Source: Clostridia bacterium
GTDB lineage: Bacteria; Bacillota; Clostridia; Lachnospirales; Lachnospiraceae
Assembly (NCBI GenBank): GCA_003249225.1
Contig: QKJQ01000027.1
Span: 186,001 to 250,000, forward strand
Length of the DNA stretch: 64,000 nucleotides
Direction: 5' to 3'
Part shown: positions 34,569 through 55,338 of the stretch, one piece after another
Numbering within the stretch: the stretch's first letter is position 1
How the letters are laid out: each line of letters begins with the position of its first letter
The notes under the pieces: model-generated
The model's input: the letters and a program-made list of their open reading frames with translations, nothing else
Databases searched by the model: none
What the model was told of the DNA's origin: nothing
Translations under genes and position numbers: made by a program

Positions 34569-36365
34569 TTACAAATCGTTCTTTATTGCAGATGCCACGC
34601 TGTCAAGGTGATGAATATGGGACACGGCCTGTTCTTCTCCAACTTTAAATTCAATGTTCCTGCTGTTTGTCAATGCTTCCTGATAACAGGTCATGGCTTT
34701 TTCTGCTTCGTTCATTTTCTCATAAAGAAATCCGGTTCGAATCAATACAAGGATTCTGCTCTTTTGATTTCCGGCATTTGCATGTATGATTGAAGCTTTT
34801 AGCAGGAAGGATAATGCTTTCCCTGTGTCGTCCATTTCGATGCAGGCGTTTCCCATGTTATACATAGCATCGCCCTCTCCTTGCTTATATTCGGAATCAA
34901 TGCTGGCATTCAGTGCATCCTCGAACTGTTGCATGGCGTTGCTGTATTTCTTTTGTTTCATATATAAGACACCGATCTGGTTCAGCTGTGTTATGATTCC
35001 GATCTTATAATCTGCTTCCTTATAAATGGCAAGAGCTTTTTGAAAATGATCAAATGCTTTTGTATAGTCATTTCCATCAAGATAAATATTTCCCATGACA
35101 CTGTACGCATTTGCCTGACCCTGACGATAGGATATCTTTGTATGCAGTTCAACGGAACGCTGGCAGAATTCCAGCGCATTGTTCATATCTCCCATCCAGC
35201 GATAGGTGCTTCCAAGGTTCAAAAGCTGGTTGGCTTCTCCCTGCAGACTGCCGATCTCATGATTGATCTGCACTGCCTTTTCGAAGTTCACCAATGCTTC
35301 TTCGTAATTTTCTTTTGAACTGTATAGATAACCAATGTTTGCAAGTGTGTTGGCTTCACCCTGACGGTTGCCATTCTCTCTGTTCATATGAAGTGCTTCC
35401 ATCTGGTGCTTCAGTTCCTCGCTTTGCTTCATATCTCTGTACTTTGCATAAAGCGCTGCATCGATTTCATTGATCTTATCCATGATCTGATCCACAATGG
35501 AACGATCCTTTCGCTGAGGATCGACATCACTCAGCAGCTCCTTGATCCTTTCCGGTTTATTCAGATCGGTCGATTTTATACAGTTGAACAGCAAGTCGAC
35601 ACGTCCAAGCATTAATTCACCATTGGTATTTTCGTGCGAGCTAAAACGGTTATTTAAAAAGATTGCAACTTCATAATGATTGTTGAATTCACTTCCCACC
35701 TGGCTGACACGGTTCTTCACCGCAGTCTGCAGCCTCTGCAATGCTATTTCGGCTGTAAGTACCAATCCGTTCAGTTCATCAAGAATCTGGTATTCTTCAT
35801 AGGACAGTTCACCGCTAAAAGGTTTGTAGACAAGGTCATGCTCTACTTCAGCCCATGCATGCATAATTGCTGAAGCGACCTGAATCTCGATCATGGTCTT
35901 TGCATACTTTTTATTTTCATGAGATAGGTTTTCATACTTCATATACACTCTGTAATGTGTTGCCCAATATCCTGAAAATCGCTTAACATATTCTGTTGAA
36001 TGAAGGTCGTCCTGGTCTTCCGCTTCCGGAAAAGACCTGCATTCCTTCACAATAAAATTTGCTTCTATGAACTGACGGACCTTCGCCAGATCACCCGGGA
36101 AATAAAGAGCGATCCTGACACCGGATAAATCCGCTATATCATCATAAATGTCCTCAAAGGTATGATACCTTTTTGCGACATTTCGTTTTTCTAACTTATT
36201 TCGTAAACGTTCCGGCTTCTTTGCACGGCTTGTAACAATGGCGCGGATACCCATTTGTTCCATGCTTGTTTCACAAGCCTGAGCACAAATTCTCCCCAAT
36301 TCCACATAAAATTCATATTTTTTAATATAATGATCTATAAACCCGCCAATCACTGACATCTCCAC
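34569..36365 (-). CDS. RelA/SpoT (p)ppGpp synthetase-domain protein with C-terminal TPR array
   Basis: A 598-residue cytoplasmic protein. Residues about 40-235 are a RelA/SpoT synthetase domain with SRAKKPERLRNKL, the core DIADLSGVRIALYF, the ring-stacking region SGYWATHYRVY and EIQVASAIMHAWAEVEHDLVYK, so the catalytic set appears present, with Arg in place of the usual Ser in the first motif. A linker (about 240-320) leads to six or seven TPR repeats (about 325-575), each with the G-x-A-N-x-L-x-N-x-G pattern (GEANTLANIG, GEANQLLNLG, GQANAYSVMG). No hydrolase, TGS or ACT domain is present. It starts with GTG at 36363-36365, with GGAGG 6 bases before. It is monocistronic. Confidence 0.88.
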   Translation of the reverse strand: MEMSVIGGFIDHYIKKYEFYVELGRICAQACETSMEQMGIRAIVTSRAKKPERLRNKLEKRNVAKRYHTFEDIYDDIADLSGVRIALYFPGDLAKVRQFIEANFIVKECRSFPEAEDQDDLHSTEYVKRFSGYWATHYRVYMKYENLSHENKKYAKTMIEIQVASAIMHAWAEVEHDLVYKPFSGELSYEEYQILDELNGLVLTAEIALQRLQTAVKNRVSQVGSEFNNHYEVAIFLNNRFSSHENTNGELMLGRVDLLFNCIKSTDLNKPERIKELLSDVDPQRKDRSIVDQIMDKINEIDAALYAKYRDMKQSEELKHQMEALHMNRENGNRQGEANTLANIGYLYSSKENYEEALVNFEKAVQINHEIGSLQGEANQLLNLGSTYRWMGDMNNALEFCQRSVELHTKISYRQGQANAYSVMGNIYLDGNDYTKAFDHFQKALAIYKEADYKIGIITQLNQIGVLYMKQKKYSNAMQQFEDALNASIDSEYKQGEGDAMYNMGNACIEMDDTGKALSFLLKASIIHANAGNQKSRILVLIRTGFLYEKMNEAEKAMTCYQEALTNSRNIEFKVGEEQAVSHIHHLDSVASAIKNDL

Positions 36366-39692: not shown

Positions 39693-42020
39693 TTATCCGT
39701 TATATACGCTCTCGCAAGCTGCTTCACTGTAGTCAAATTCCTTAAAACGGTCATCGTTCAATGTTCCTACGGCATCTGCACGACACTGCTTGCAATGTGT
39801 CATCTGCTTCATCACAGGACTGCATTCTTTACGAAGCTCTGCAAGATCCTGGGCACTGGTCGCTTCCAGATTTTCAAATATACTGCCTTTTACCTGAATG
39901 AACGGCATAATATTGGTCATATAACAACCGATTTCTTTAGCAGTTTTAACGATTTCAGGAATATGTTGATCGTTTATTCCTTTTAATGTAACAATATTCA
40001 CTTTACAGATAATGCCTGCCGCCGTTAATATACGAAGCCCGGCAAGCTGGTTCGATAATAATATGGCTGCGGCGCTTTCTCCCTCAAACAACATTCCGTT
40101 GTATTTGACATATTGTATTATTTTAGCCCCGATTCTTATATCAACAGCGTTCATAGTCACTGTAACATGTGTAACACCAAGGGCAATCAGGTCCTGCGCA
40201 TATTCCGGCAGGCGTAACCCGTTTGTGGATAAACAAAAGGTAACATCAGGATCGTATTCACGTATTAATTCAAGCGTTTTTCTTGTTGACTCAAAATTCG
40301 CCAGGGTATCACCAGGTCCTGCAATACCAACAACGTTCAGATTCTTCACTTTCTCTTTTGCAAGTTTATATCTGGCAAAAGCTTCTTCCGGACTCAGTAC
40401 ATGCGAGGTAACACCAGGTCTGCTCTCATTCGGACAGTCAAATTTACGAACACAGTAGTTACACTGAATGTTACATTTTGGTGCAACCGGTAAATGTATT
40501 CTAGCCGATTCTGACGCACAGCCATTATAACAAGGATGCGTATTTGTCTTTTCTTCCATCTTTTTTCTATCGACCGGTACATAGACTGTACGGATCACCG
40601 TTTCTTTCTTTGTCTTTTCCAATAGGCTTTCCTCCTCTTGCTTAAAGTACTTATTGTACAGTTTATCTCTGAAATCAACTTCTTTACGCGAAAGAACAGC
40701 ATTTGCAATCTCTTCCATAAAGGTAAGTGAACCGTCATATAAAACACTTTTCAGACGTTGTCCTCCGACTCTGTCATGGATAGGAAATCCTCTTCGCACA
40801 AGCGGTATGTGAAGCTCTTCTTCTATTCTGCGTCCGTCTGAATTACCAATCATGAGGTTCGCATGATGTTTTACAGCGAGTGCTTCTATCGTTTTAAAAT
40901 CGACATCATCAACAATGTCATAAGCGCGTATCATAAAACGGTCGGCCAGTGCCTTGATTTCTTTTTCAATGGCTTCCTTAAGCTCCGGAACCACTGATCC
41001 GGTAGCTACAACAACAGGCATAACACCGTTTTCTGCACAAAGTCGAATGGTCGAAAATACAAAATCCGGTTCACCAAAAACCACCGCTCTGCCGTCTGAA
41101 TTATACTTATGCGCATCAATCATGGAATCGGCATATCTTCCTCTTAATTTCTTTAGTTTTGCCGGAATCGGACGACCACTCAGTTTTGATAATAACTCAT
41201 AAAAGATATCTGTATCACGAATACCGACCGGAAGATGCAGCGGCAGATACTGTACCTGGTATACATCTGAAAGATATCGTCCCGGTGAGTTCTTTAAAAA
41301 ACTCATGCCAAGTTCTATTGTCATTCTTGCCCCCGCCATCCTTTTGATTTCCTCAATGGAAGTTCCGTGAGCCGGAAGCTTTTCATAATCCTTCGAGTAC
41401 TCCCTGTCAAGGTTGTCTGAAATATCCGGAAATAAAATAGCCGGAATCTCAAATGCTTCAAAGGTTTCTTTGATCATCCTGACATCTTCCGGCGACATTG
41501 GCGGTAAAATCACATTAATGTATTCATTTGGTGTTGTATCCATTTTTATATTGGCAAGTATTGAATTCAGTGCTCTGTAATAACCTTCGAACTGAGTTCC
41601 TCCATAACCAGGAGAATTGACTGGTATAATTTCTATTTCTTTATATTCCGGGTAAGCATGGTAAAACTTTTCAATCATCGCCGGTACATCTTCTCCGATT
41701 GTTTCTGCAAGACAGGTCGTTGATACTCCAATTATCTCTGGGTGATATACTTCAATGATATTCTTAAGTCCAATCATCAGGTTCTTCTCACCACCGAATA
41801 CAGTTCCTTCTTCAGTCAGAGACGAGGAAGCAATATCGATCGGCTCATTATAATGAGTGGCCATGTGCCTTCTGATGTAAGTACTGCAGCCCTGTGAACC
41901 ATGAAGGATAGAAATACTTTTTCTGATTCCGTAAAATGCAGTGACCGAACCAAGCGGCATGCACATCTTACAGGGATTACTGTTGAGATGAACCAGTGGT
42001 TCTATTTTTGTTTTACTCAT
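39693..42020 (-). CDS. nifN-nifB: NifN-NifB fusion: FeMo-cofactor scaffold subunit plus radical-SAM NifB
   Basis: A 775-residue fusion. Residues 1-455 are NifN (HGSQGCSTYIRRHM, SSSLTEEGTVFGGEKNL, STTCLAETIGED), the partner of NifE in the scaffold on which NifB-co matures. A charged linker (455-490) leads to NifB (about 495-760), whose radical-SAM motif is CNIQCNYC (Cys516, 520, 523), with GIAGPGD, LSTNGL and the C-terminal CKQCRADAVG. NifB makes the 8Fe-9S-C core. No C-terminal NifX-like domain is present. The same fusion is known in C. pasteurianum. It starts inside the end of nifE (8-base overlap) with a GAGGTGAG site. Confidence 0.96.
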   Translation of the reverse strand: MSKTKIEPLVHLNSNPCKMCMPLGSVTAFYGIRKSISILHGSQGCSTYIRRHMATHYNEPIDIASSSLTEEGTVFGGEKNLMIGLKNIIEVYHPEIIGVSTTCLAETIGEDVPAMIEKFYHAYPEYKEIEIIPVNSPGYGGTQFEGYYRALNSILANIKMDTTPNEYINVILPPMSPEDVRMIKETFEAFEIPAILFPDISDNLDREYSKDYEKLPAHGTSIEEIKRMAGARMTIELGMSFLKNSPGRYLSDVYQVQYLPLHLPVGIRDTDIFYELLSKLSGRPIPAKLKKLRGRYADSMIDAHKYNSDGRAVVFGEPDFVFSTIRLCAENGVMPVVVATGSVVPELKEAIEKEIKALADRFMIRAYDIVDDVDFKTIEALAVKHHANLMIGNSDGRRIEEELHIPLVRRGFPIHDRVGGQRLKSVLYDGSLTFMEEIANAVLSRKEVDFRDKLYNKYFKQEEESLLEKTKKETVIRTVYVPVDRKKMEEKTNTHPCYNGCASESARIHLPVAPKCNIQCNYCVRKFDCPNESRPGVTSHVLSPEEAFARYKLAKEKVKNLNVVGIAGPGDTLANFESTRKTLELIREYDPDVTFCLSTNGLRLPEYAQDLIALGVTHVTVTMNAVDIRIGAKIIQYVKYNGMLFEGESAAAILLSNQLAGLRILTAAGIICKVNIVTLKGINDQHIPEIVKTAKEIGCYMTNIMPFIQVKGSIFENLEATSAQDLAELRKECSPVMKQMTHCKQCRADAVGTLNDDRFKEFDYSEAACESVYNG

Positions 42021-43362
42021 AGGAACTCACCTCGCTTTTTATAAAGTCCCACACAGGATGGTTTATGCTGCTGTTGATCTCCTCAACGAAATTAAGGACA
42101 CCATCAAAACCAGCCAGCGGATGTTTGCGCTCATGATTGTGATCACAGAAGGCTATACCAAGTTTATAAGCCAGAGGTCTTTCTTTAACTCCGCCAACCA
42201 GAATATCTGCACCTGTTTCGACCATATATCGTTCTAATTCGGCAGGATTGGCATCATCCAGTATTACCGTTCCCTTATCTACAATCTTTTCAATTACTTC
42301 ATACTCATCTTTTTTTCCTGTCTGTGTACCGACTACCACTGTTTTCATGCCGAGTGCGGTAAACTGGTGGATCAGTGAAATTGCTTTAAAGCCTCCTCCA
42401 ACATAAACGGCAGCTTTTTTCCCTTCCAGATTCTTTCGGTACTTTGCAATGATTTCTTCTACCCTTGTAGTCTGTTCGGTGCAGTAATCTGTAATTTTTT
42501 GTTTTGCTTCTTCATCCTTCAGTGCATCTGCTATTTTGATCAATGATTCCGTTGTATCTTCTACACCAAAGAAACTTACCTTTATAAACGGAATTCCAAA
42601 CTCTTCATACATACGGTTCGCAAGATACATGCTGGAGCCTGCACACTGTACGATATTCAGTTGTGCGGATGGTGCTTTGATCAGCTTTTCGTAACTGGAA
42701 TCACCGGTAAAAGTTGATATGACCGGGATACCCATTTCTTTCATATAGCTTTTTATGATCCACATTTCTCCGGCAAGGTTAAAATCGCCGAGAATGTTAA
42801 TTCCTCTTTGAAGCGGCTGATTCTTGTAATCCTGTAACAATTGCATGATTGCATTACAGGCCATTTTATAGCCGGTTGCCTTATTGCCTGAGAATCCGGG
42901 TGATTTGACCGGAATCACATGCATGGCATATTTATTTGATATGCGCTTACATACCGCTTCTACATCGTCCCCGATGACACCTACGATACAAGTCGCATAT
43001 ACGAATATTAATTTGGGCTGATGTTTTGCAACAACCTCTTCAATAGCAGCTTCGAGTTTCTTTTCTCCGCCGAATATAACATCTTTTTCTCTCAGGTCGG
43101 TAGAAAAACTTGTTCTGAAAATATCATCACCACTTGTCAGGCTGCCTCTGATGTCCCAGGTATAGCTTGCACATCCGATTGGTCCATGAACAATATGAAA
43201 GGCGTCTGTGATTGGATTCAGAACCACACGGGCTCCACTATAAACGCAGGCTCTCTGGCTGACAGAACCGGACACACTGTTCTGATCACATGTGATACCA
43301 CTATTCTCAGTGCCAGTTTTCAATACGATTGATTGTTTTCTCTCTTCAATGATACCATTCAC
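42013..43362 (-). CDS. nifE: NifE, FeMo-cofactor assembly scaffold subunit
   Basis: A 449-residue protein of the nitrogenase alpha-like family. Features: SQRACVYSGARVVLNPITDAFHIVHGPIGCASY (cluster Cys), FRTSFSTDLREKDVIFGGEKKL, YATCIVGVIGDD, and C-terminal 'NHERKHPLAGFDGVLNF' where NifD has the cofactor His region. With NifN it forms the scaffold for FeMo-cofactor maturation. The most upstream in-frame start (TTG) touches the AAAGGAG site, so the GTG at 43360-43362, nine bases downstream of it, is chosen. A terminator-like hairpin separates it from nifK. Confidence 0.95.
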   Translation of the reverse strand: MNGIIEERKQSIVLKTGTENSGITCDQNSVSGSVSQRACVYSGARVVLNPITDAFHIVHGPIGCASYTWDIRGSLTSGDDIFRTSFSTDLREKDVIFGGEKKLEAAIEEVVAKHQPKLIFVYATCIVGVIGDDVEAVCKRISNKYAMHVIPVKSPGFSGNKATGYKMACNAIMQLLQDYKNQPLQRGINILGDFNLAGEMWIIKSYMKEMGIPVISTFTGDSSYEKLIKAPSAQLNIVQCAGSSMYLANRMYEEFGIPFIKVSFFGVEDTTESLIKIADALKDEEAKQKITDYCTEQTTRVEEIIAKYRKNLEGKKAAVYVGGGFKAISLIHQFTALGMKTVVVGTQTGKKDEYEVIEKIVDKGTVILDDANPAELERYMVETGADILVGGVKERPLAYKLGIAFCDHNHERKHPLAGFDGVLNFVEEINSSINHPVWDFIKSEVSSYE

Positions 43363-43388
43363 TTTGCACAACTCCTTTCATTATGAGT

Positions 43389-43436
43389 CAAAAAAGAGCC
43401 TTATGAAAAAGAATGACTTCTTTGTCATAAGACTCT
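43389..43436 (-). terminator. Terminator-like hairpin between nifK and nifE
   Basis: In the 123-base gap between nifK and nifE the minus strand reads AGAG-T-CTTATGA (43425-43436), an inner stem AAAGAA-GTCA-TTCTTT, then TCATAAG-G-CTCT (43395-43406) directly followed by six Ts (43390-43395). It is a stable stem with one mismatch plus U-run, the form of a rho-independent terminator, yet the operon continues. It may lower nifE and nifNB expression relative to nifHDK or protect the nifHDK mRNA 3' end. Confidence 0.75.
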
Positions 43437-43485
43437 AACTTTACTTACTCATACATTAAATAATTGTATTTCTACCAGCTGTAAA

Positions 43486-44850
43486 TTACATTACCATTTC
43501 AAGATCTTTTTCATCACAGTGCTTATCCTGATAATCCATGATCGCATTCGTTATAAGTTCCGCCATGCGGATTGCACCTTTGTATCCAACCAGTGGCTGA
43601 TAAGAGTGAATGTAACGGTCAATGATTGGGAAGCCCATTCTTACCAACGGAACATCTTCTGCTCTGGCAATTGCTTTGCCATGCGTACCGCCAATCATGA
43701 TGTCGACCGGTTCGTTCTTCATCCACTGATGAAGCTCAAATAGGTCACCTTCTACTTTAACCGTGCAATCTGTCATTGCATAGCTGTTGAGGAGCTCATT
43801 AGCCAGACGTTCGAAATCTTTTCCCGGTGTTCCAGTAATCATATACTTTGGTATCATACCAAGTTCCAGTGCAAATGCTGCAATACCAAGAACGGTATCC
43901 GGATCTCCATAGATTGCCACTTTCTTTCCATAGGTGTATGGATGAATGTCGATCATAATGTCAACAAGCTGTCCACGTTCTTCTTCAACATCCGCCGGAA
44001 TTTCTTCTTTTGAAAGTTCCTGCAGTGTCATAAGGAATTTATCGGTTGCATTAACACCCATAGGAAGAGGTAAATTAATCGGTTCAACACCGCATTTACG
44101 CTTCAGGACTTCACCGGATGGCTCTGAGGCAAATTTACCAAGTGTAATTGATTTTTTACATTCACCCAGCTTTTTAATGTCTTCGATCTGAGTTCCGCCC
44201 TTAGGATACATCTCGAATTTTCCTGTCATAGGAGAATCCATTACTCCACTTGTATCTGGCAACATAGTAAACGGAACTTTCATTTTTGTCAAGAGTCTTT
44301 TATACTCACGCATGTCTCCAGGGTTCACAAATCCAGGAAAAATGCAGACTTTATCTGTCTTTACATCTGTCTTAACACTTAAATAATTAATAAAGCCGGA
44401 AACCATGTTTGAAAATCCGGTAATATGAGATCCATTGTAACTTGGAGTATTACAGTGAACCATGTATTTCCCTTCCGGAATTTCTATATCAGTGATCAAT
44501 GCATTTAAATCATCACCGATTGTTTCAGAAAGACAGGTCGTATGAACTGCAATCATATCCGGTTTATAGATATCAAAAATGTTCTTGGAGGCAATCTTTA
44601 AGTTACTTCCGCCGCCGAATACAGAGGCACCTTCTGTGAAGGAACTGGAAGAAGCCATTGCAGGGTCTTTAAAATGTCTTGTTAAGAACATTCTGTGGAA
44701 TGCGCAGCATCCTTGAGAACCATGACTGTGAGGAAGACATTTGTGTACACCAAGTGCTGCATACATTGCACCTACCGGCTGACAGGTCTTTGCCGGATTT
44801 ACGCGAAGCGCTGAACGCTCTTTAATTTCATTTGTAGTAAAATCAAGCAT
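43486..44850 (-). CDS. nifK: Nitrogenase MoFe protein beta subunit
   Basis: A 454-residue protein of the short, Clostridium-type NifK (no N-terminal extension). P-cluster ligands are seen as Cys23 (PAKTCQPVG), Cys48/49 (HGSQGCCAF) and Cys106 (TTCLSETIGDD); SSSSFTEGASVFGG is the loop after the second ligand. 'MGFPIIDRYIHSYQPLVGYKGA' closes the protein. With NifD it forms the alpha2-beta2 dinitrogenase. The ATG shares its A with the nifD stop (TAATG) and uses a GGAGG site inside nifD. Confidence 0.98.
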   Translation of the reverse strand: MLDFTTNEIKERSALRVNPAKTCQPVGAMYAALGVHKCLPHSHGSQGCCAFHRMFLTRHFKDPAMASSSSFTEGASVFGGGSNLKIASKNIFDIYKPDMIAVHTTCLSETIGDDLNALITDIEIPEGKYMVHCNTPSYNGSHITGFSNMVSGFINYLSVKTDVKTDKVCIFPGFVNPGDMREYKRLLTKMKVPFTMLPDTSGVMDSPMTGKFEMYPKGGTQIEDIKKLGECKKSITLGKFASEPSGEVLKRKCGVEPINLPLPMGVNATDKFLMTLQELSKEEIPADVEEERGQLVDIMIDIHPYTYGKKVAIYGDPDTVLGIAAFALELGMIPKYMITGTPGKDFERLANELLNSYAMTDCTVKVEGDLFELHQWMKNEPVDIMIGGTHGKAIARAEDVPLVRMGFPIIDRYIHSYQPLVGYKGAIRMAELITNAIMDYQDKHCDEKDLEMVM

Positions 44851-46457
44851 TATTCCTCACCTCCTAATGTAGCTGATAAGCTTGGTACTTTTTTCCACGG
44901 AGCACGAACAAGTCCCCAGGCCGGTGTTGACAGACCCATAAGAATATCTTTTCCAAAGTTTACTGCTCCCTGGAATCCTGCATACGGTCCACTATAGTCA
45001 TAAGAATGAAGCTGTCTTGAAAGTGTTCCGCTTTTCTGTGCAATGAACTTATCTTTAATACCAGAGAAAAATACATCCGGTTTTAAAATGCTGATAAACT
45101 CTTCTGTTTCAAAATGGTTAAGGTCATCACAGATGATGGAGCCTTCGTCCATTTCTTTGAACATACCTTCGTAATAATTAAGTTTTACGCCTTTTTCAGC
45201 CAAAGCTGCCTTCTGCTCATCGGTAAGGTAAACACGATAGTATTTTTTGTCTGGTTCCACGGTGATACTTTCGATGTTCTTGCTGTCGGCGTCCGGTTTG
45301 ATATCCGGAAGTACTTCTCTTCCTTCGTAATCATCACGATGAGCAAATTCATATCCCGCGAGGACTGTACTGATACCAAAGTCTTTTAATAAGGTCTGAT
45401 AGTGGTGAGATCTTGATCCGCCAACATACAATGCTGCTGTTTTGCCTTTTAGTTTGCTCTTTAGGTACTGCATTTCATCTGCGTTGTTCAGCATCTCATC
45501 TGTGATAACTTCCTGAATTCTTGTTTTTAATTCTTCATCTCCAAAATACTCACCGATTTCTGCAAGCGACTTTTTACAGCTTTCTGAACCAATAAAATTC
45601 ACCTTGATCCAGTCAATGCCATACTTTTCATACATCATGTCTGCTACATAGTTTATAGAACGATGGCACTGAACCAGATTTAAGTCTGCATGATGTGCAT
45701 TCTTAATATCTCTGACACTGCTTCCACCGGTAAATACCGATACAACATCGATACCACAACGGCGTAACAATCTTTCTACTTCCCATCCGTCACCACCAAT
45801 GTTATACTCACCAAGGATATTAACACTGAATTTCTTCTTCGGTTTCTTATCGCCGGTTCCAATGATATAGCGAATCAGCTGATTGTTTGCGATATGGTGA
45901 CCAGCTGACTGGCTGACACCCTTGTATCCTTCACAGCTGAACCCGATGCATTTGATACCATATTCCTCTTCCGCCCATCTGGCAACGGCATGAATATCAT
46001 CACCGATCAGTCCGACAGGGCAGGTAGAACAGATAAAGATTGCCGGTGGGTTGAATATATCAACAGCTTCTGTAATTGCTTTTTTAAGCTTCTTTTCTCC
46101 GCCGAATACAATATCTGATTCCTGCATATCGGTCGAGAAACAATATTCCAGATAACTCTTTGCTTCTTCACCATCTTTTACGTCGGATTCTGCTTTGTGA
46201 CGTCTGGTTCCCCATGCATAGTAGGAGCATCCGATCGGTCCGTGGACGATGATGAGTGCATCCTTGATCGGACCAAGAACAACACCTTTACAGCCTGCAT
46301 AACAGCACCCTCTCTGTGTTATAATACCGGGAATGGTTCTTGTGTTTGCTGTTACTTCATCCGGTTGCTTATCACCAATTGTGATGACATGCTCTTTTCT
46401 GTTTTTATAAACTCTTGAATTATATTGATCTAATACATGATCCCTTACTGAACTCAT
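44850..46457 (-). CDS. nifD: Nitrogenase MoFe protein alpha subunit, Clostridium-type with insertion
   Basis: A 535-residue protein. Cys264 (NLVQCHRSINYV) and His484 (RQLHSYDYSGPYAGF) are the FeMo-cofactor ligands. P-cluster Cys are in RGCCYAGCKG (51/52), HGPIGC77 and STC146PVGL. The substrate-gating GVSQSAGHHIAN is present. About 50 extra residues (about 380-435) relative to the Azotobacter protein form the insertion known from C. pasteurianum. These ligands identify the molybdenum enzyme rather than an AnfD/VnfD; no anfG or vnfG is present. A GGAGG site precedes the ATG. Confidence 0.98.
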   Translation of the reverse strand: MSSVRDHVLDQYNSRVYKNRKEHVITIGDKQPDEVTANTRTIPGIITQRGCCYAGCKGVVLGPIKDALIIVHGPIGCSYYAWGTRRHKAESDVKDGEEAKSYLEYCFSTDMQESDIVFGGEKKLKKAITEAVDIFNPPAIFICSTCPVGLIGDDIHAVARWAEEEYGIKCIGFSCEGYKGVSQSAGHHIANNQLIRYIIGTGDKKPKKKFSVNILGEYNIGGDGWEVERLLRRCGIDVVSVFTGGSSVRDIKNAHHADLNLVQCHRSINYVADMMYEKYGIDWIKVNFIGSESCKKSLAEIGEYFGDEELKTRIQEVITDEMLNNADEMQYLKSKLKGKTAALYVGGSRSHHYQTLLKDFGISTVLAGYEFAHRDDYEGREVLPDIKPDADSKNIESITVEPDKKYYRVYLTDEQKAALAEKGVKLNYYEGMFKEMDEGSIICDDLNHFETEEFISILKPDVFFSGIKDKFIAQKSGTLSRQLHSYDYSGPYAGFQGAVNFGKDILMGLSTPAWGLVRAPWKKVPSLSATLGGEE

Positions 46458-46472
46458 GCTCTCACCTCCTGT

Positions 46473-46862
46473 CTAGTATGAATCTACATCCGTCTGATTT
46501 TCTCCGTCTCTGATACGGATTGATTCCGATACCGGAAGTACAAACACTTTTCCGTCTCCGGGGTTACCAGTAGAGTTTACATTAATAATTGTTTTCACTA
46601 CTTTTTCCACGTCTGAATCCGGAACGACCAGAGTAATGCAACGTTTTGATATCAATCTGTGTGGTTCTGTAATATATTCACCTACTGGTGATACAGGAAG
46701 TTCTCCCTGTTCTATGATGGTTTCCAGAATAGCTTCACTTACTGCTTTTTTGCCTCGACCCATAACTTTTCTACAGGTAAATGCCGGAAAACCTTCATCT
46801 GCTAATGCTTCTTTGGTTTCATTTATCCGGTTTAATCGGATGAACGCCATAATCTCCTTCAC
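46473..46862 (-). CDS. nifI2: PII-like nitrogenase regulator NifI2
   Basis: A 129-residue PII-family protein. It has the FIRLNRINETKEALADEGFPAFTCRKVMGRG start, an extended T-loop region (about 45-75) and the STGNPGDGKVFVLPV ligand-binding C-terminus. NifI1/NifI2 pairs, placed between nifH and nifD in archaea and clostridia, bind NifDK and switch off nitrogenase when ammonia is present, with 2-oxoglutarate and ATP reversing this. The start is GTG (46860-46862) 6 bases after GGAGGG. Confidence 0.95.
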   Translation of the reverse strand: MKEIMAFIRLNRINETKEALADEGFPAFTCRKVMGRGKKAVSEAILETIIEQGELPVSPVGEYITEPHRLISKRCITLVVPDSDVEKVVKTIINVNSTGNPGDGKVFVLPVSESIRIRDGENQTDVDSY

Positions 46863-46873
46863 GAAAATCCCTC

Positions 46874-47200
46874 CTATAATCCAGCTTTTTTCGTACTGAT
46901 CGTATATGCTTCTTCCACGGGGCTGATGAAGATTCTTCCATCACCGTAGTTGCCGTTATCTCCTGTTCTTGCATACTTCATGATGATCTTAACAACATCA
47001 TCTTTATCTTCATCTTTTACGACCATAAGCAGCATTTCCTTCGGGATCTCATCGTAAAATACATCACCGATCTTAATTCCCTTTTGTTTTCCCCTACCAT
47101 AAACATCCATCTTGGTCACTGCCGGAAATCCAGCTGCAAGCAACTCTGATAATACCAGGCTAACTTTGTTTGGTCGAATAATTGAACGTACCAATAACAT
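46874..47200 (-). CDS. nifI1: PII-like nitrogenase regulator NifI1
   Basis: A 108-residue PII-family protein: MLLVRSIIRPNKVSLVLSEL, 'GFPAVTKMDVYGRGKQKGI', 'DVFYDEIPKEMLLMVVKDED' (T-loop and following strand) and the TGDNGNYGDGRIFISPV ligand loop. It forms the partner of NifI2 in post-translational control of nitrogenase. It lies between nifH and nifI2 with a GGAGG site before its ATG. Confidence 0.95.
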   Translation of the reverse strand: MLLVRSIIRPNKVSLVLSELLAAGFPAVTKMDVYGRGKQKGIKIGDVFYDEIPKEMLLMVVKDEDKDDVVKIIMKYARTGDNGNYGDGRIFISPVEEAYTISTKKAGL

Positions 47201-47240
47201 ATTTTTATTCCTCCTTCATATCACCATTCTATGTTTATTA

Positions 47241-48074
<834 letters not shown>

Positions 48075-48287: not shown

Positions 48288-49172
48288 TCATAAACCGATA
48301 TAAATCAGGTGATTTTCAGTAATCTCTTTTCCATCCGGTACAGGTATCTTTCTATTATCAAGAGGCGCTTTCAGCGCTACATGAATAACATCCCCGGTCA
48401 CTTTTCGTTTCGTGGTAACGGTCAGACCGTATTCCTGTATGTTTATATGGTAATCATCAATTCTTGTTGCTTTTGCTATTTTCCGGCATCCTATGATTCT
48501 TGCTGTTTGCAGCGTTGCCGGATGTGAAAAGACTTCTTCCACAGCTCCATATTGAAGAATGCTCCCCTTGTCAAGAACCGCCATCTGTGTTGCATAAGTT
48601 TCAATCTCTTCCGGATTATGTGATACTGTTATAAGTTTCCCCTGATATTCCGAAAGTATTGTAAGCATTTCCTCCTGCAGTTGCTCACGCAGATAGGCAT
48701 CAATGGCCGAAAAAGGTTCATCAAGCAAGATCATATTCGGCTCATAAGCCAGTATCCTTGCTAATGCAACGCGCTGCTGCTGTCCCCCTGACAGTTGGGA
48801 AGGATACCTTTTTTCAAGACCCTCGAGTCTCATTTTACGGATAAGCTGATGTATAACTGCACGATCTGCCTTTGTAATACCAATGTTCTGTTCAACTGTC
48901 AAATTGGGAAACAATGCATAGTTTTGAAACAGATACCCAATCTTTCGTTTTTGCGGCGGAAGATTGATTTTTTTTTCCGAATCAAAGAGGATTTGATTGC
49001 CCAGTACGATTCTTCCACAATCCGGTGTCATTATCCCTGCAATGCATTTGAGTGTCATACTTTTGCCTGACCCGCTGGCACCCATTAGTCCGATGTATTT
49101 TTCATCACATGTGAAATCAACATTCAGGGAAAAGCTTCCTGTTTCTTTTTTAATATTTACTTCAAGTAGCAT
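48288..49172 (-). CDS. modC: Molybdate ABC transporter ATP-binding protein
   Basis: A 294-residue ABC ATPase. Walker A is GASGSGKS, the signature LSGGQQQR, Walker B MILLDEPFSAID and the H-loop VSHNPEE. A short C-terminal extension (about 215-294) takes the place of the full ModC regulatory domain. Position after modB and modA and before nifH supports molybdate (or tungstate). A GAGGGGG site precedes the ATG. Confidence 0.93.
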   Translation of the reverse strand: MLLEVNIKKETGSFSLNVDFTCDEKYIGLMGASGSGKSMTLKCIAGIMTPDCGRIVLGNQILFDSEKKINLPPQKRKIGYLFQNYALFPNLTVEQNIGITKADRAVIHQLIRKMRLEGLEKRYPSQLSGGQQQRVALARILAYEPNMILLDEPFSAIDAYLREQLQEEMLTILSEYQGKLITVSHNPEEIETYATQMAVLDKGSILQYGAVEEVFSHPATLQTARIIGCRKIAKATRIDDYHINIQEYGLTVTTKRKVTGDVIHVALKAPLDNRKIPVPDGKEITENHLIYIGL

Positions 49173-49247
49173 AATTTTCCCCCTCTGCGTATTGTTATTC
49201 CCTGCTCTTTATAACCTGTCACTTTGTCATTACGATGCAAAAAGAAA

Positions 49248-49943
49248 CTACCACTTCCCAACATGCGTACGTTTGCTCTCAAAAAATCGATTACTGATTG
49301 TCATGATCAGGAAGGATAGGACAACAATAATAATGACCCAGACGCCAGCCACATCATAATGACCGTTCGCCGTCTCTGTCGCAATTGCCATCGAAACGGT
49401 TCTTGTTTTACCAAGTATGTTTCCGGCAAGCATAGCCGTAGCTCCATATTCCCCAATCGCTCTGGTAAAAGCCAGCATAGTTCCGGATATAATACCTGGT
49501 GCAGCGTTTGGAAGTATGATCTTGATTAAAATAGTTAATTCGCCCAGTCCCAGTGTTCTTCCTGCCTGTATCAAGGTTAGATCAACCTGCTCAAAGGCGG
49601 CTCTCGTATTACGATACATCAGAGGAAAGGCGATCACTACGGCAGCAATGACGCAACCTTTCCAGGTCTGAACGATTTTTATATCGAAGGTATCCAGCAA
49701 AAATGCACCAAATGGTCTGCGGATACTGAATATTATCAATAGAAAAAAACCGGCAACGGTCGGTGGAAGAACAAGCGGTAATGTAAGGACGGCATCGATC
49801 AGCCATTGAAGTTTGCCACTGATTCTCATTACAAGGGCAGCAAATAGTATGCCAAGCACAAAAGCTATGGCAGTCGCAGCAATTCCGGTTTTTAAAGAAA
49901 TCCAGAATGGACTCCAGTCTATGTTCATAAGAATATCAAGCAT
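49248..49943 (-). CDS. modB: Molybdate ABC transporter permease
   Basis: A 231-residue membrane protein with five to six segments. The family-specific loop LPLVLPPTVAGFFLL and the cytoplasmic EAA-type loop AGRTLGLGELTILIKIILPNAAPGII, then FTRAIGEYGATAMLAGN, identify the ModB/CysT class. A longer start at 50009 is rejected: the ATG at 49941-49943 has an AGGAGG site at ideal distance. A 233-base gap separates it from modA. Confidence 0.93.
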   Translation of the reverse strand: MLDILMNIDWSPFWISLKTGIAATAIAFVLGILFAALVMRISGKLQWLIDAVLTLPLVLPPTVAGFFLLIIFSIRRPFGAFLLDTFDIKIVQTWKGCVIAAVVIAFPLMYRNTRAAFEQVDLTLIQAGRTLGLGELTILIKIILPNAAPGIISGTMLAFTRAIGEYGATAMLAGNILGKTRTVSMAIATETANGHYDVAGVWVIIIVVLSFLIMTISNRFFESKRTHVGKW

Positions 49944-50136
49944 ACTGCCTCCTGTTCTTTGCAATATTTCAAGTTGCGATATCAGAAAAACATCTTCCAT
50001 GATTTCCATGTTAGTCTGCCGTCTGAAACCTCACTATGAGGAACACCTTATATAGAATCTGTGCTGCAACATACCTCCTGGGATTCCTCGACTGTAACAG
50101 CACAAATTCCATATTCTAAAATCATTTCTTCTCTAA

Positions 50137-50153
50137 TAAAATTTCAGTAAAAT
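50137..50153 (+). repeat. 17-bp inverted repeat flanking modA, left copy
   Basis: TAAAATTTCAGTAAAAT lies between modA and modB. The exact reverse complement occurs at 51083-51099, just upstream of modA. It lies within 233 intergenic bases that also contain a possible hairpin with 7-bp arms TGTGCTG / CAGCACA. Confidence 0.75.
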
Positions 50154-50176
50154 TTCCCCAACACCTATATGTAAAC

Positions 50177-50971
50177 TTACTCGTATGCAGAAAAACCATA
50201 ATTCTGCAGTATATTCAGAGCCTCCTCTGACTGAAGATATTCATAAAAGGCCTCTGCTGCTTTTTTCTGATCGTCATCTGCAGCCGAATTATTTACAAGA
50301 CCAACAGGATAAACAACGCGACTCGAAAGATATTCACTTTTAGCGACTTCAATAATATCCACCGAATCTTCAACAAGTTTTGCATCCGTTGCATATACAA
50401 CACCAACTTCATTGCTTCCTTCACTGACAGCTGCAAGAACAGCAGACACATTAGAACATTCATTGATTTCCATATTCATTACATCATCAAGAATTCCCAG
50501 TGTTTCGAAAATCTGTCTTGCATAATCACCGACCGGTACGTCTTCTCCTGCCAAGGCAAGATTGGCAGCTTTTGTTACATCAGCAAATCCAGTCACTTCT
50601 GTTTGTGTTCCCGCAGGCTTGATCAGTACAACTTTATTCTCCAGAAGTTTTACGGAATCACTCTCCCCGATGAATCCTTCCTCTGTTAAAGCATCTACCT
50701 GTTTTGTCCCTGCGGAAAAGAAAACATCACATTCCGCACCCTCTTCAATCTGTTTTTGAAGTGTTCCAGAACTGTCTGTCTGAAGTATAATCGTAACTTC
50801 TGCATTATCCGCCTGATAAGCATCTGTGATCTGTGTCATGGCATCTGTCAGACTGGCCGCAGCAAAAAGATAGATGGTAGATTCTTTTTTACCGCATCCT
50901 GTCAAACCTGCAAGTAAAGTTACTACGAAAAGTGTCATAATACAATTCCTGATCCAAGGTCTCTTTTTCAT
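50177..50971 (-). CDS. modA: Molybdate-binding lipoprotein
   Basis: A 264-residue periplasmic-type binding lipoprotein anchored in the membrane. A signal peptide ends in the lipobox GLTGC (Cys26). The ModA start TIYLFAAASLTDAMTQI and 'QTDSSGTLQKQIEEGAECDVFFSA' give the oxyanion-binding loops, and 'NEVGVVYATDA' closes the site. Upstream in-frame starts run through a leader repeat and are rejected; the ATG at 50969-50971 follows GAGGA with good spacing. Confidence 0.94.
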   Translation of the reverse strand: MKKRPWIRNCIMTLFVVTLLAGLTGCGKKESTIYLFAAASLTDAMTQITDAYQADNAEVTIILQTDSSGTLQKQIEEGAECDVFFSAGTKQVDALTEEGFIGESDSVKLLENKVVLIKPAGTQTEVTGFADVTKAANLALAGEDVPVGDYARQIFETLGILDDVMNMEINECSNVSAVLAAVSEGSNEVGVVYATDAKLVEDSVDIIEVAKSEYLSSRVVYPVGLVNNSAADDDQKKAAEAFYEYLQSEEALNILQNYGFSAYE

Positions 50972-51452
50972 AGAATTCCTCATTTCTGCACTGCTTTTAA
51001 ACATTTCAACATGTGTCAAGCAGCACACAGACACAAGTTGCTGTGCGAACGCTATATTCGCACATTTCCCCTCTTGCATGTGATTTTACTGAAATTTTAT
51101 ATTACAATATCTTATCAAATATATAATTATTTACTATCCATGAAATTTTAGATTATTCACAAATTAATTGTGTTATTTTGTGCAATTTAACCAATGTATT
51201 TTTTTTGTATACTCATTCAATGAACAACCAGATTCAGTAACCGTTCAACACACTTCTTATTAATTAGGCAGTTTACAGTAGCCAGTACTGTCTGTCCTGC
51301 ATATCAGCGAATCATCTATGCTTCTGTTATATGCTTCTGCTATATGCTTCTGTTATATGCAGTTGAAGATTGTTTCTAAAACAAAAATGCTTCAAAGCGA
51401 CGCGAATTTATGATATGATTGATTTTATCATTCGCAGAATTGAGGAAGTCCC
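50972..51452. other. 481-bp region between modA and the OGG gene
   Basis: No gene is seen. It holds the GCAGAAATGAGG leader module of modA, a hairpin GTGCGAA-N7-TTCGCAC (51043-51049 / 51057-51063) in the modA leader, the 17-bp repeat at 51083-51099, three 13-bp tandem units TATGCTTCTGTTA (51317-51355, middle one with CTA), and the plus-strand leader of the glycosylase gene with GCAGAATTGAGG just before its ATG. Confidence 0.6.
51083..51099 (-). repeat. 17-bp inverted repeat flanking modA, right copy
   Basis: Exact reverse complement of 50137-50153. It lies 112 bases before the modA start codon in an AT-rich stretch that probably holds the modA promoter. Confidence 0.75.
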
Positions 51453-52331
51453 ATGTTAGTTGAAAAAGCAAATTTTGACCTTAAACAGATTGCAGAGTCT
51501 GGGCAGTGTTTTCGAATGACCGAACTTGCCCCCTCACTTTATCAGATCATAGCAGGTAATCACTATGTTCTGGCTGAGCAACTGGAAGAAAACCTTATAA
51601 ATTTATTCTGTTCAAACGAAGAATTCGAACTGATCTGGTATGATTACTTTGATCTTGGTTATGATTATACAGCACTTGTTGACCGGCTCATTAATGCTCC
51701 TGATGTCTTTTTATCAAACGCAGCTGCGTACGGACATGGAATCAGAATCCTTCAGCAGGATCCATTTGAAATGACCATAAGTTTTATTCTTTCGCAGAAT
51801 AAGAACATACCAGCAATTATGAAAAGTATAGAATCCTTGTGCCTTATGTTCGGTGAAAAAAAAGAAGTCAGCAAAACAGATCTATCCTGTTTTACTGACC
51901 AGCGTTCTCATTATACGATTGATGAAATTATCTGCTTTCTTCCTTTGCACTATTATGCTTTTCCAACACCAGCTATTCTTGCCGCGGCAGAACTTGGTGA
52001 TCTGAAAAAAACGAAAGCCGGGTATCGCTCAGAGTATATAAAAAGAGCCTCTGCTTCCGTTGCTGAGAAACAACTGAACCTGGAAGCTCTGCGTACATTA
52101 CCCTCTGCTTTGGCTATATCTGCTTTAAAAACGCTTCACGGAGTCGGCGATAAAGTCGCTAACTGTATCGCTTTGTTCGGGCTGCATCATGTTGATGTAT
52201 TCCCTGTTGATGTATGGATCAAGCGTATTCTTTCTGAACATTACAACGATAGTTTCAAGGTTGAATTATATGACGGATATGCCGGTATCGTCCAGCAGTA
52301 TATGTTCTACTATATCCGTGCCTGCTCGTGA
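51453..52331 (+). CDS. OGG1/AlkA-type DNA glycosylase (HhH-GPD)
   Basis: A 292-residue DNA repair enzyme. An N-terminal OGG-type domain (GQCFRMTELAPSLYQIIAG) is followed by the helix-hairpin-helix domain LHGVGDKVANCIALFGLHHVDVFPVDVWIKRIL, with the catalytic Asp in PVDVW. A Lys in 'KKTKAGYRSEYI' sits where the Schiff-base Lys of 8-oxoguanine glycosylases is found, so it is probably bifunctional. It removes oxidised guanine. The last 22 bases overlap the end of the convergent GGDEF-IMPase gene. GAGGAAG site before the ATG. Confidence 0.92.
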   Translation: MLVEKANFDLKQIAESGQCFRMTELAPSLYQIIAGNHYVLAEQLEENLINLFCSNEEFELIWYDYFDLGYDYTALVDRLINAPDVFLSNAAAYGHGIRILQQDPFEMTISFILSQNKNIPAIMKSIESLCLMFGEKKEVSKTDLSCFTDQRSHYTIDEIICFLPLHYYAFPTPAILAAAELGDLKKTKAGYRSEYIKRASASVAEKQLNLEALRTLPSALAISALKTLHGVGDKVANCIALFGLHHVDVFPVDVWIKRILSEHYNDSFKVELYDGYAGIVQQYMFYYIRACS

Positions 52332-54247
52332 GCTGGCTGTCCGCCTGCAAGACAGGAACAACTCTTTCCATATGGGAGTTCTTCACGCGAAATCGTTGTT
52401 ATCTTTCCTCCGGCTTCCATAACGATCAATGCTCCGGCTGTGTAATCCCAAGGCGACAGTCTGTACTCATAATATAGTTCGCATCTGCCTGCCGCTATAT
52501 TGCATAAATCTAGTGCTGCAGAACCGCTCCGCCTTATATCCAGTGCCTGATCGAACAAAGATCTCATCAAAGCGAAGGTATCATTGGTCAGTTCAGGATA
52601 ATAAGGTGCTGTACCAAATACAACAATTCCCTCTGCTAAAGAATGCTGCGATGCATGAATCTGCTGTTGATTCACATAAGCGCCTTCCCCTTTTTTTGCA
52701 TAAAAAATTTCATCCAGATAGGGGTTGTATACGACCCCCATGTAAGGTTCCCTGTTCCTTAGCAGTCCGACCGATATAGAACTGTACTTGTATCCTTTTA
52801 TAAAATTTGTGGTTCCATCAATCGGATCAATGATAAACGTAAAGCCGTCACCAAGTTCTTTTTGTTCCTTTTCTTCTTCTCCGATAAAAACAGCTTCCGG
52901 AAGTATCTTTTGCAATCCTTCGAACAGTGCCTGTTGCACAATATTGTCATAGGCAGTAACAAAATTCGCATTTCCGGACTTTTCCGTTACAGATGCTTCA
53001 ATGTTCAATGCAGAAAGCATGATTTTTCCGCACTTCTTAGTGATCTGCAGGATTTCATCAAGAAGTGAATCCTCTTTGTATATAATTTCTGCTTTGTTGC
53101 TCTTTCTTTTATTCTTATTCTTATACATTCCGACATCGGATATGGCTAATGCATTTTCAAACGGAATATCAACCTCAGGGCTCACTTCACATATCCCATA
53201 ACTGAACTGAAGTGTAATGCCATTCAGCTCCCGTTCTGCAACAACGCTTACAACATTCTTCATTATAAGCTTTGCCTGCGGCTTATCCGTATTTTTTAAT
53301 AAAACCAAGAATTCATCTCCTGCAAATCTTGCAACGAGATTGGGTTCTTTGATGCTATCGGTTAAAATCGCAGAAAAATGCTGCAGAACCTGATCACCAA
53401 AGCAATGCCCGTAAGTATCATTGTAGGACTTAAAATCGTCCATATCGATCATGACAAGACAAAACTTTTGCTGACTGCTTCTAGCAGCAATCGCTTCCAA
53501 ATCATATGATTTTTTGATCTTTCGCCGATTCATTACACCAGTTAATTCATCATGATCAACAAGGAACCTGACTTTCTTCTCAGCATAAAAATTCTTTATG
53601 GAAGGTTCAAGTTCTGCTTTTATCTGTTCAATTGTCTCTAAATCCTGTTCTTTAAAAAGATGATCCTTATCAATGGAGCCAATGTGAAGTACACCATACA
53701 AATACCTGTCATTTATAACCGGTACAAGTAAAAAATTACTGTCACTTTCACTCATTCCATTTTCAATGAGTATCTTGTTGCCCCGGTATAAGCGAAAACA
53801 ATTGTGAATGACAGAACCTTTGAACTGGTTGATCTGATACAATATCATAGCTTTACGGGAAATAATCTCTCCCGCTTCGGCTTTTTTCATATTCACAGCA
53901 GCCATCTGTTCAAATCCGATCTTCCTGTTGATCAGGAACTCACCCTTGTCAGCATTAGGAATCAATTCAATGATAGCTTGTACAACCGTCTGTATAATCT
54001 CACTTTCCGTATTATGCTCGGAAATCTGCCGGCTCGTTTCAATCAGCCTTTTGCGAATCATCGTAACACGCATAAGCTGCTTATTCTTCTTATGCATCAT
54101 AAAAAATGCATAGACAGCAACTAAAAAAACAATAACCAAAACTGTTATGACCGTCCACAAAATGGTCGCAATGTGCCCCACATCCTCCATACGTGTATCC
54201 TGCCCTTCACTCATAAAACATAGTAGAATCAATGTTAGCATATACAC
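52310..54247 (-). CDS. Fusion protein: membrane anchor - GAF-like - GGDEF - inositol monophosphatase
   Basis: A 645-residue protein in one uninterrupted frame. One membrane segment (about 28-50), a GAF-like domain (65-215), a GGDEF domain (225-390; FLVDHDELTGVMNRR, IDMDDFKSYNDTYGH, AGDEF at 309-313), then a complete inositol monophosphatase family domain (about 392-640) with FVTAYDN, the metal-binding GEE (456-458), DPIDGTTNF (474-482) and PWDYTAG. All IMPase metal ligands are present. AGDEF is compatible with diguanylate cyclase activity. I know of no usual fusion of these two enzymes. The start is uncertain: neither the ATG at 54247 nor ATG at 54188-54190 (with AGGA upstream) is clearly best. 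Confidence 0.87.
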   Translation of the reverse strand: MYMLTLILLCFMSEGQDTRMEDVGHIATILWTVITVLVIVFLVAVYAFFMMHKKNKQLMRVTMIRKRLIETSRQISEHNTESEIIQTVVQAIIELIPNADKGEFLINRKIGFEQMAAVNMKKAEAGEIISRKAMILYQINQFKGSVIHNCFRLYRGNKILIENGMSESDSNFLLVPVINDRYLYGVLHIGSIDKDHLFKEQDLETIEQIKAELEPSIKNFYAEKKVRFLVDHDELTGVMNRRKIKKSYDLEAIAARSSQQKFCLVMIDMDDFKSYNDTYGHCFGDQVLQHFSAILTDSIKEPNLVARFAGDEFLVLLKNTDKPQAKLIMKNVVSVVAERELNGITLQFSYGICEVSPEVDIPFENALAISDVGMYKNKNKRKSNKAEIIYKEDSLLDEILQITKKCGKIMLSALNIEASVTEKSGNANFVTAYDNIVQQALFEGLQKILPEAVFIGEEEKEQKELGDGFTFIIDPIDGTTNFIKGYKYSSISVGLLRNREPYMGVVYNPYLDEIFYAKKGEGAYVNQQQIHASQHSLAEGIVVFGTAPYYPELTNDTFALMRSLFDQALDIRRSGSAALDLCNIAAGRCELYYEYRLSPWDYTAGALIVMEAGGKITTISREELPYGKSCSCLAGGQPAHEQARI

Positions 54248-54294: not shown

Positions 54295-55338
54295 TTATTT
54301 TGTACTTTTTCGCAGCTTAAGTTCCGGCTTGATCAAAGAGGTCTTCATATCATGAGGTTTTTTATCCTGCATTATTTTATGCAGTGTTGTAAACACTTTC
54401 TTACCAAATACATCATAGCAGGGACTGACGGAAGTTATATGTGTAGGCAGAACGGTTTCTTCTCCAATATCATCAAACCCTACAAATGCTATGTCTTCCG
54501 GGACACGCAGACCAGCTTCCAGCGCTGCATCCCTGGCACCAACAGCAACATAATCGTTGACCCCACAGAATACCTCTGCTTCCAAAGGCTTTTCTAACAG
54601 CATTTTCATACCAATGTAGCCGGAGCGATAATCAAAATTCATATTCGGAGTCAGCCAGTTGACGGTTACTTTCATGCCAAGTTTCTTACCAAACTCATAA
54701 GCATACTTCTTTTTCAGATAAGCCGGATAGAATTCATCACCGCCACCGAACATATATATACTGTTGTATCCTTTTGATTTCAGATGTGTCATCAAAAGTT
54801 CCACTCCTTTGCCATCATCTGTATAAACAGCCGCACACCCAAAACGTTCAGCCATTGTTGCACATGAGACAAAAGGTATCAGATCTTTGATCTCCCGAAT
54901 TTCTCGAATGTATTCTTCAGAAAGTTCGACCGCATCCATCCGTCCACCCATCATGACAATGCCGTCCACCCTTTTTTCCTTTAAGCTGTATAAAAGCTTT
55001 GATTCGACTTCATAATCACCCTTTGAATTGAGCAGGATTGTCATATACCCGTGGCTGGATGCCCATTTTTCAAACTCATAATAAACACTTGCAAAGTACA
55101 TATTTCCTATATGAGGTACAATGAATCCGATGGTTTTCGTAAAGCCTGTCTTTAGATTCTGAGCAAATGTGTTTGGACTGAAATTATACTTTTCAACGAG
55201 ATCCAGAATCTGAATTTTTTTTGTTTCCGAAACATAACCTTTTCCCGAAATCGCTCTTGATACAGTTGCCGATGATACTCCCGCTTCTTTTGCAATATCA
55301 TAAATGGTTATTGATTTTGATCGTGTCTGTTCATCCAA
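54295..55338 (-). CDS. LacI-family transcriptional regulator
   Basis: A 347-residue repressor. The N-terminal helix-turn-helix ITIYDIAKEAGVSSATVSRAI and hinge (about residues 7-65) are followed by a periplasmic-binding-protein-like sensor with TIGFIVPHIGNMYFA, 'DGIVMMGGRM' and 'DIAFVGFDDI'. Placed after two glycosidase genes and a sugar ABC transporter on the same strand, it most likely controls that sugar regulon; the inducer is unknown. The 242 bases upstream (55339-55580) hold no gene, and I found no convincing operator. Confidence 0.93.
   Translation of the reverse strand: MDEQTRSKSITIYDIAKEAGVSSATVSRAISGKGYVSETKKIQILDLVEKYNFSPNTFAQNLKTGFTKTIGFIVPHIGNMYFASVYYEFEKWASSHGYMTILLNSKGDYEVESKLLYSLKEKRVDGIVMMGGRMDAVELSEEYIREIREIKDLIPFVSCATMAERFGCAAVYTDDGKGVELLMTHLKSKGYNSIYMFGGGDEFYPAYLKKKYAYEFGKKLGMKVTVNWLTPNMNFDYRSGYIGMKMLLEKPLEAEVFCGVNDYVAVGARDAALEAGLRVPEDIAFVGFDDIGEETVLPTHITSVSPCYDVFGKKVFTTLHKIMQDKKPHDMKTSLIKPELKLRKSTK

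Follow-up and report, generated by a model that had tools for sequence, protein, structure and literature searches.

A GGDEF–inositol monophosphatase fusion of apparently narrow distribution in a Lachnospiraceae genus

The usual partners of GGDEF domains within a protein are sensors or c-di-GMP phosphodiesterases. In the window, by which we mean the whole 64,000-nucleotide stretch analysed here, one minus-strand frame instead joins a GGDEF domain to an inositol monophosphatase (IMPase) domain. GGDEF-EAL bifunctional proteins are alike in placing a second catalytic domain directly after the GGDEF; their EAL domains degrade c-di-GMP, and we know of no IMPase-family member that acts on this compound. 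Two questions are raised by the locus: (i) is the frame a single gene and (ii) what might such a protein do. The gene, the parts of its product and its two flanking genes are as follows.

52310-54247 (-): fusion gene, 645 aa, transmembrane helix, GAF-like region, GGDEF and IMPase (ORF, Pfam)
54098-54169 (-): transmembrane helix, residues ~27-50 (hydropathy and a long helix, residues 20-77, in the AlphaFold model)
53621-54013 (-): GAF-like putative sensor region, residues 79-209 (GAF_2 below threshold here and in the sister species G003)
53102-53557 (-): GGDEF domain, residues 231-382 (PF00990, E 1.2e-34)
53309-53323 (-): AGDEF signature, A309-F313, first residue A and not G
53066-53098 (-): linker, residues 384-394 (model confidence below 50 at 385-392)
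52325-53065 (-): IMPase domain, residues 395-641 (PF00459; Pfam span 399-641)
52811-52879 (-): metal-site motifs E457-E458 and DPIDGT (474-479), by alignment
52505-52534 (-): SuhB-type motif 5, RRSGSAALDL, residues 572-581, by alignment
52445-52447 (-): metal ligand D601 of SPWDYTAG, by alignment
51453-52331 (+): convergent neighbour, OGG-type DNA glycosylase, with a 22-nt overlap with the end of the fusion gene, as in G003
54295-55338 (-): upstream neighbour, LacI-family regulator, ending 47 nt ahead of GTG 54247

The frame at 52310-54247 is uninterrupted over 645 codons in the window's ORF list. Its start is uncertain: by eye, no ribosome-binding site stands out ahead of the GTG at 54247, and ATG codons at 54241, 54214 and 54190 lie in frame as alternatives.

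The first question is best addressed with the draft genome G003, from a second species of the genus. Residues 234-645 are encoded there in one frame on one contig at 76% identity, and a second contig ends within the counterpart of residues 2-254, at 58% identity, as placed by a match search in which at most 20 candidates were scored. When the printed ends of these two contigs are compared, 69 bases are shared and a single one of them differs; therefore, the assembly break cuts the gene inside the GGDEF part and not at the junction. The two loci also have in common a LacI-type frame, an upstream glycoside-hydrolase-like gene (70% identity) and the OGG-type gene (66%), whose tail-to-tail overlap with the fusion gene (22 nt, window 52310-52331) is of equal length in G003.

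Substitutions between the window and G003 at codon positions 1, 2 and 3 number 80, 48 and 229 over residues 234-645, and 11, 5 and 24 over residues 366-405, which contain the linker. The pN values are 0.34 for residues 1-60, 0.23 for residues 61-222, 0.19 for the GGDEF and 0.11 for the IMPase, with pS values, all at or near saturation, of 0.61, 0.92, 0.76 and 0.83, respectively. The IMPase is the best-conserved part of the two fused proteins, at 81% identity compared with 71% for the GGDEF. At the level of sequence comparison, it is shown that purifying selection has conserved the fused frame in both species. The earlier note had read the region as one frame and had raised the possibility of a frameshift near the linker. 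The single frame is borne out by the 645 open codons and the same in-frame junction in G003, and no frameshift is seen, the bias toward third-position changes continuing through the linker.

The GGDEF domain of the cyclase half scores 119.8 bits against PF00990 (cut-off 23.8) and is matched by diguanylate cyclases in the PDB (best E 6.4e-22), with which the metal- and base-binding block MIDMDDFKSYNDTYGH at residues 266-281 and the AGDEF at 309-313 align. RxxD is an optional inhibitory I-site motif of GGDEF cyclases; it is absent from the fusion GGDEF, where KEPN occupies positions 300-303, and KEPH is found in G003. The window's genome contains 56 matches to the fusion protein, namely the fusion gene itself and 55 over the cyclase half. 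These 55 centre on the GGDEF and end at or before query residue 416, and some frames hold two of them. The fusion cyclase may be redundant, given so many further matches. PilZ matches in the same genome number two. A separate GGDEF protein within the window (287-2905, 872 aa) combines PAS, histidine kinase and receiver domains with its GGDEF.

Free-standing relatives of the cyclase half occur in G027 and G039 (372 and 403 aa, ~40% identity). Like the fusion protein, such GAF-GGDEF cyclases have an N-terminal hydrophobic stretch, a GAF-like region and a GGDEF with the AGDEF signature; unlike it, they stop after the GGDEF and have no phosphatase. The hydropathy of the fusion protein peaks in the 19-residue stretch that starts at residue 33 (33-51), which marks the predicted membrane helix. 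The GAF-like region is less easily assigned. GAF_2 (PF13185) reaches 18.8 bits in the fusion protein and 25.3 bits in the N-terminal half from G003, both under the cut-off of 28.6, and the AlphaFold model of the region is poor and unreliable. The assignment is strengthened because the relatives in G027 and G039 pass the cut-off, with 39.4 and 30.9 bits.

The phosphatase half matches Inositol_P (PF00459) at E 3.1e-62 (211 bits, cut-off 27), and its nearest fold is that of Pseudomonas aeruginosa SuhB (8wip, Foldseek E 7.0e-24). By alignment, the full IMPase metal-ligand set is kept: E457, D474, I476 (through its backbone), D477, T479 and D601. The earlier note's division of the protein into domains is thus upheld by Pfam (GGDEF and Inositol_P) and by this set of ligands. 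The ligand roles of the aligned residues are in part general background on the family. In part they follow excerpts of PMC5516325, where SuhB-type proteins are marked by a double Arg and GSAAL with Asp-Leu in motif 5 and by a Gly in motif 6, and HisN by an Asp with aromatics in motif 5 and no Gly at the motif-6 position. The fusion IMPase carries the SuhB-type set (RRSGSAALDL at 572-581 and G605). It shares its fold, metal ligands and RRxGSAALDL motif with SuhB-type IMPases of PF00459, which differ in being usually ~260 aa long and free-standing, whereas the domain described here forms the C-terminus of a membrane protein that also has a GGDEF.

Assignment to a particular enzyme within this family is more difficult. 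An identity as HisN was rejected, since the HisN motif 5 is absent and TIGR02067 scores 129.6 bits against 275.15, and so was an identity as the 3'(2'),5'-bisphosphate nucleotidase CysQ (TIGR01331, 121.4 bits against 228.8; separate from CysQ in the tree described below). PRK10757, the NCBIfam inositol-1-monophosphatase equivalog, is not reached either (134.1 bits against 332). The exact substrate cannot be read from the sequence because the cut-offs of the best-matched NCBIfam IMPase equivalogs are missed. Inositol-1-phosphate synthase (PF01658) has no match in the window's genome, which is 88% complete; the control search finds it in 6 of 14 genomes. Neighbouring genes are of no further help. 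At 17 loci of free-standing IMPase homologues, read by eye and in a few cases by Pfam, they vary by genome (for example, a sugar transferase directly upstream in G122, a PfkB kinase at G101 and a macro domain at G156) and so give no hint of the substrate. On this sequence evidence, we favour neither de novo inositol nor a nucleotide from the turnover of c-di-GMP as the phosphatase target.

How widely is the fusion distributed? It is found in two of the four genomes of the genus. The earlier note had counted absence from close relatives as evidence against it; of the three other genomes, G003 has the fusion, and G001 (100% complete, 5% contaminated) and G002 (81% complete) have neither half at E 1e-20 and no IMPase-domain match at E 1e-8. 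G001 and G002 also have only distant OGG genes, and the glycoside-hydrolase-like gene was not found in them. In the family sample, which evidently lacks G003 as it is not among the genomes matched, 100 of 397 genomes including the window's have an IMPase-domain match, GGDEF-fused in the window's genome alone. IMPase-domain matches occur in 101 of 391 genomes of the class sample and 80 of 348 of the phylum sample, with no further GGDEF-IMPase frame among the frames inspected. For the cyclase half, a search at E 1e-30 in which at most 5 candidates were scored per genome gives relatives in at least 3 of the 392 genomes sampled from the order, namely G027, G039 and the window's own. These genome samples are drawn and overlapping, and fusions split between contigs or falling under the E cut-off would escape them.

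Longer IMPase-matching frames were considered as possible further fusions. The seven other listed frames of at least 400 aa in the family, class and phylum searches (G102, G324, G321, G917, G1273, G1266 and G1141) match only the IMPase part when the whole query is compared by BLASTP; Pfam finds no GGDEF in G102, G324 or G917, and the G321 frame is CysQ-like by eye. Among listed frames of 336-398 aa, those of G201, G097, G018, G154, G749, G944, G839, G884, G1213, G1383 and G1388 are likewise IMPase only, their matches touching just a few residues of the GGDEF end; two others, G1339 and G1208, were left out of the comparison. In viral contigs, the whole-protein scan yields 29 pattern stretches and no relatives, and the IMPase-alignment scan yields seven loci, one of which (L146) is an 862-aa frame with a terminal IMPase and an upstream part that matches nothing in the query. 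Of the 259 plasmid records that match the query, none covers 80% of it.

Other IMPase fusions did come to light. Like the protein described here, they have a C-terminal IMPase; unlike it, they have no GGDEF domain. They are a Nudix-IMPase of 420 aa in G102 (L106:4913-6172), with lumazine-synthase-like and GTP-cyclohydrolase-II-like frames ~4 kb upstream by eye, a PHP-IMPase of 546 aa in G917 (L135:1100-2737) and a 555-aa protein in G324 (L113:4741-6405) that comprises a membrane region, a part with no Pfam match and an IMPase.

The origin of the fusion was approached with a tree of IMPase domains (68 rows, 67 of them different, long branches flagged by the program). The two fused domains form one clade (100/100) within mostly same-family free-standing IMPases, with G122 as sister at modest support (88/88); the CysQ branch is long. 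Measured from the fork, the fused branches (0.47 and 0.54) and the G122 branch (0.48) have much the same length, and the fused domain therefore bears no sign of decay. Five free-standing homologues from the same family align at 54-57% identity. The two related cyclases end near query residue 384 and free-standing IMPases start near 393-395, which puts the linker at about ten residues. We infer one fusion event before G003 and the window's genome (G000) parted. Because each half has free-standing homologues, such comparisons make the protein look as if two modules of ordinary kind had been fused in this lineage. Our search of the open-licence literature, with domain-architecture databases and subscription papers outside its scope, turned up no account of a fused GGDEF and IMPase; the architecture is real and of narrow distribution, and apparently undescribed.

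Turning to the second question, the reading that we tentatively prefer is a membrane-anchored bifunctional protein in which both halves would be active, with dimerisation as the coupling between them. The IMPase is a candidate dimer clamp because the IMPases known so far are dimeric and GGDEF domains have to dimerise in order to work. The GAF-like region would sense something and tune the GGDEF dimer, and the GGDEF would make c-di-GMP free of I-site feedback. The IMPase would be an active Mg-dependent monoester phosphatase whose substrate may be a small sugar, polyol or nucleoside phosphate. From its C-terminal position it would most likely hold two cyclase domains together at the membrane, and in this way the phosphatase state and the cyclase output could influence each other. 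The earlier note had suggested that cyclase and phosphatase activities are linked. A link is made plausible by a second species having kept the frame fused; the coupling itself we infer. Counting against this reading are the possible redundancy of the cyclase, the occurrence of the fusion in just two genomes and the lower conservation of the N-terminal part (58% identity). A related case is P. aeruginosa SuhB, which excerpts of PMC5462983 describe as an IMPase-family protein that likewise influences c-di-GMP levels, but which works through Gac/Rsm and the cyclase GcbA and not through a fusion.

Nearly as likely is that the tether is neutral: loss of a stop codon would have joined the genes, each half would keep its separate job without coupling and the cell, left without an independent IMPase gene, would depend on the fused copy. 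Neither half is unusual, free-standing homologues exist for each, and no PF00459 gene besides the fusion was found in the window's 88% complete genome. IMPase domains are also fused to unrelated partners, such as Nudix in G102 and PHP in G917. The AlphaFold model is of high confidence for the GGDEF and most of the IMPase, with a pTM of 0.45 and pLDDT below 50 at residues 385-392; because the linker is short and of low confidence and the domains are not confidently placed relative to one another, the halves may act independently. Against mere tethering, divergence has gone far enough to saturate synonymous sites, and the fused frame and its linker have persisted through it.

A different role for the C-terminal half, which we consider improbable, is that the IMPase now serves the cyclase as a dimerisation module or a sensor of metabolites and is no longer selected for catalysis. 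Non-catalytic use of the fold is known, since SuhB of E. coli belongs to this family and carries the annotation of a Nus factor. However, the metal ligands and IMPase motifs are all retained in both fused proteins, and the IMPase is their most conserved part (81% identity, GGDEF 71%), as would be expected of a working enzyme.

More improbable still is the earlier note's proposal, in which the substrate of the phosphatase half would be a nucleotide from the turnover of c-di-GMP (pGpG, pAp or similar). The IMPase fold includes nucleotidases by annotation, CysQ among them, and the title of entry 5dw8 describes a Staphylococcus aureus IMPase-II crystallised with 2'-AMP. According to excerpts of PMC12051542, the Aquifex aeolicus IMP is indiscriminate and takes phosphate from both NADPH and a riboflavin intermediate; an IMP-family enzyme can thus be very unspecific, which leaves a nucleotide target some slight probability. 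The motifs of the fused domains are nevertheless of the SuhB type and not of the CysQ type, and in the tree these domains stand apart from CysQ, so that the proposal fares poorly. That a stop or frameshift missed in sequencing or assembly joined two separate genes has a negligible chance of being correct, even with the window's assembly being a draft of 42 contigs and 88% completeness, and is ruled out by the same in-frame junction in a separate assembly of another species, by the pN and pS values and by third-position-biased substitutions across the junction.

Returning to the coupled bifunctional protein, its genomic setting allows a bolder version. The fusion gene ends a same-strand run that comprises two ABC permeases, a solute-binding protein, a GH2 enzyme, a glycoside-hydrolase-like protein (Glyco_hydro_42, 23.4 bits, cut-off 21) and the LacI regulator, the transporter names being read from sequence and not from a family search. 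It is conceivable, and on our estimate unlikely, that the protein is a single-protein membrane switch in which phosphatase and cyclase would control each other and a small phosphomonoester tied to the neighbouring carbohydrate-use genes would set local c-di-GMP. Linking a cyclase covalently to a metabolic phosphatase would connect metabolism with c-di-GMP directly and in a way that is simple to test. Both halves have well-known folds, so coupling could be tested in one set of assays; wider importance is limited by the narrow distribution.

A promoter-like site lies just 5' of the fusion gene, such sites being at chance level in the region (20 found, 16.5 expected; terminator-like sites 4 and 3.6), and Rfam gives no matches in the window. 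Elsewhere in the window, a nitrogenase cluster at 39693-48059 encodes NifH (47241-48059) and four nitrogenase-component-1-type proteins. One of these (39693-42020) carries a joined radical SAM domain and resembles NifN-NifB fusions. Adjoining the cluster is an ABC system at 48288-51079 whose binding protein has a family match and for which molybdate is the putative reading. A further multidomain protein, of 598 aa (34569-36365), joins a RelA/SpoT-type domain to many TPR repeats.
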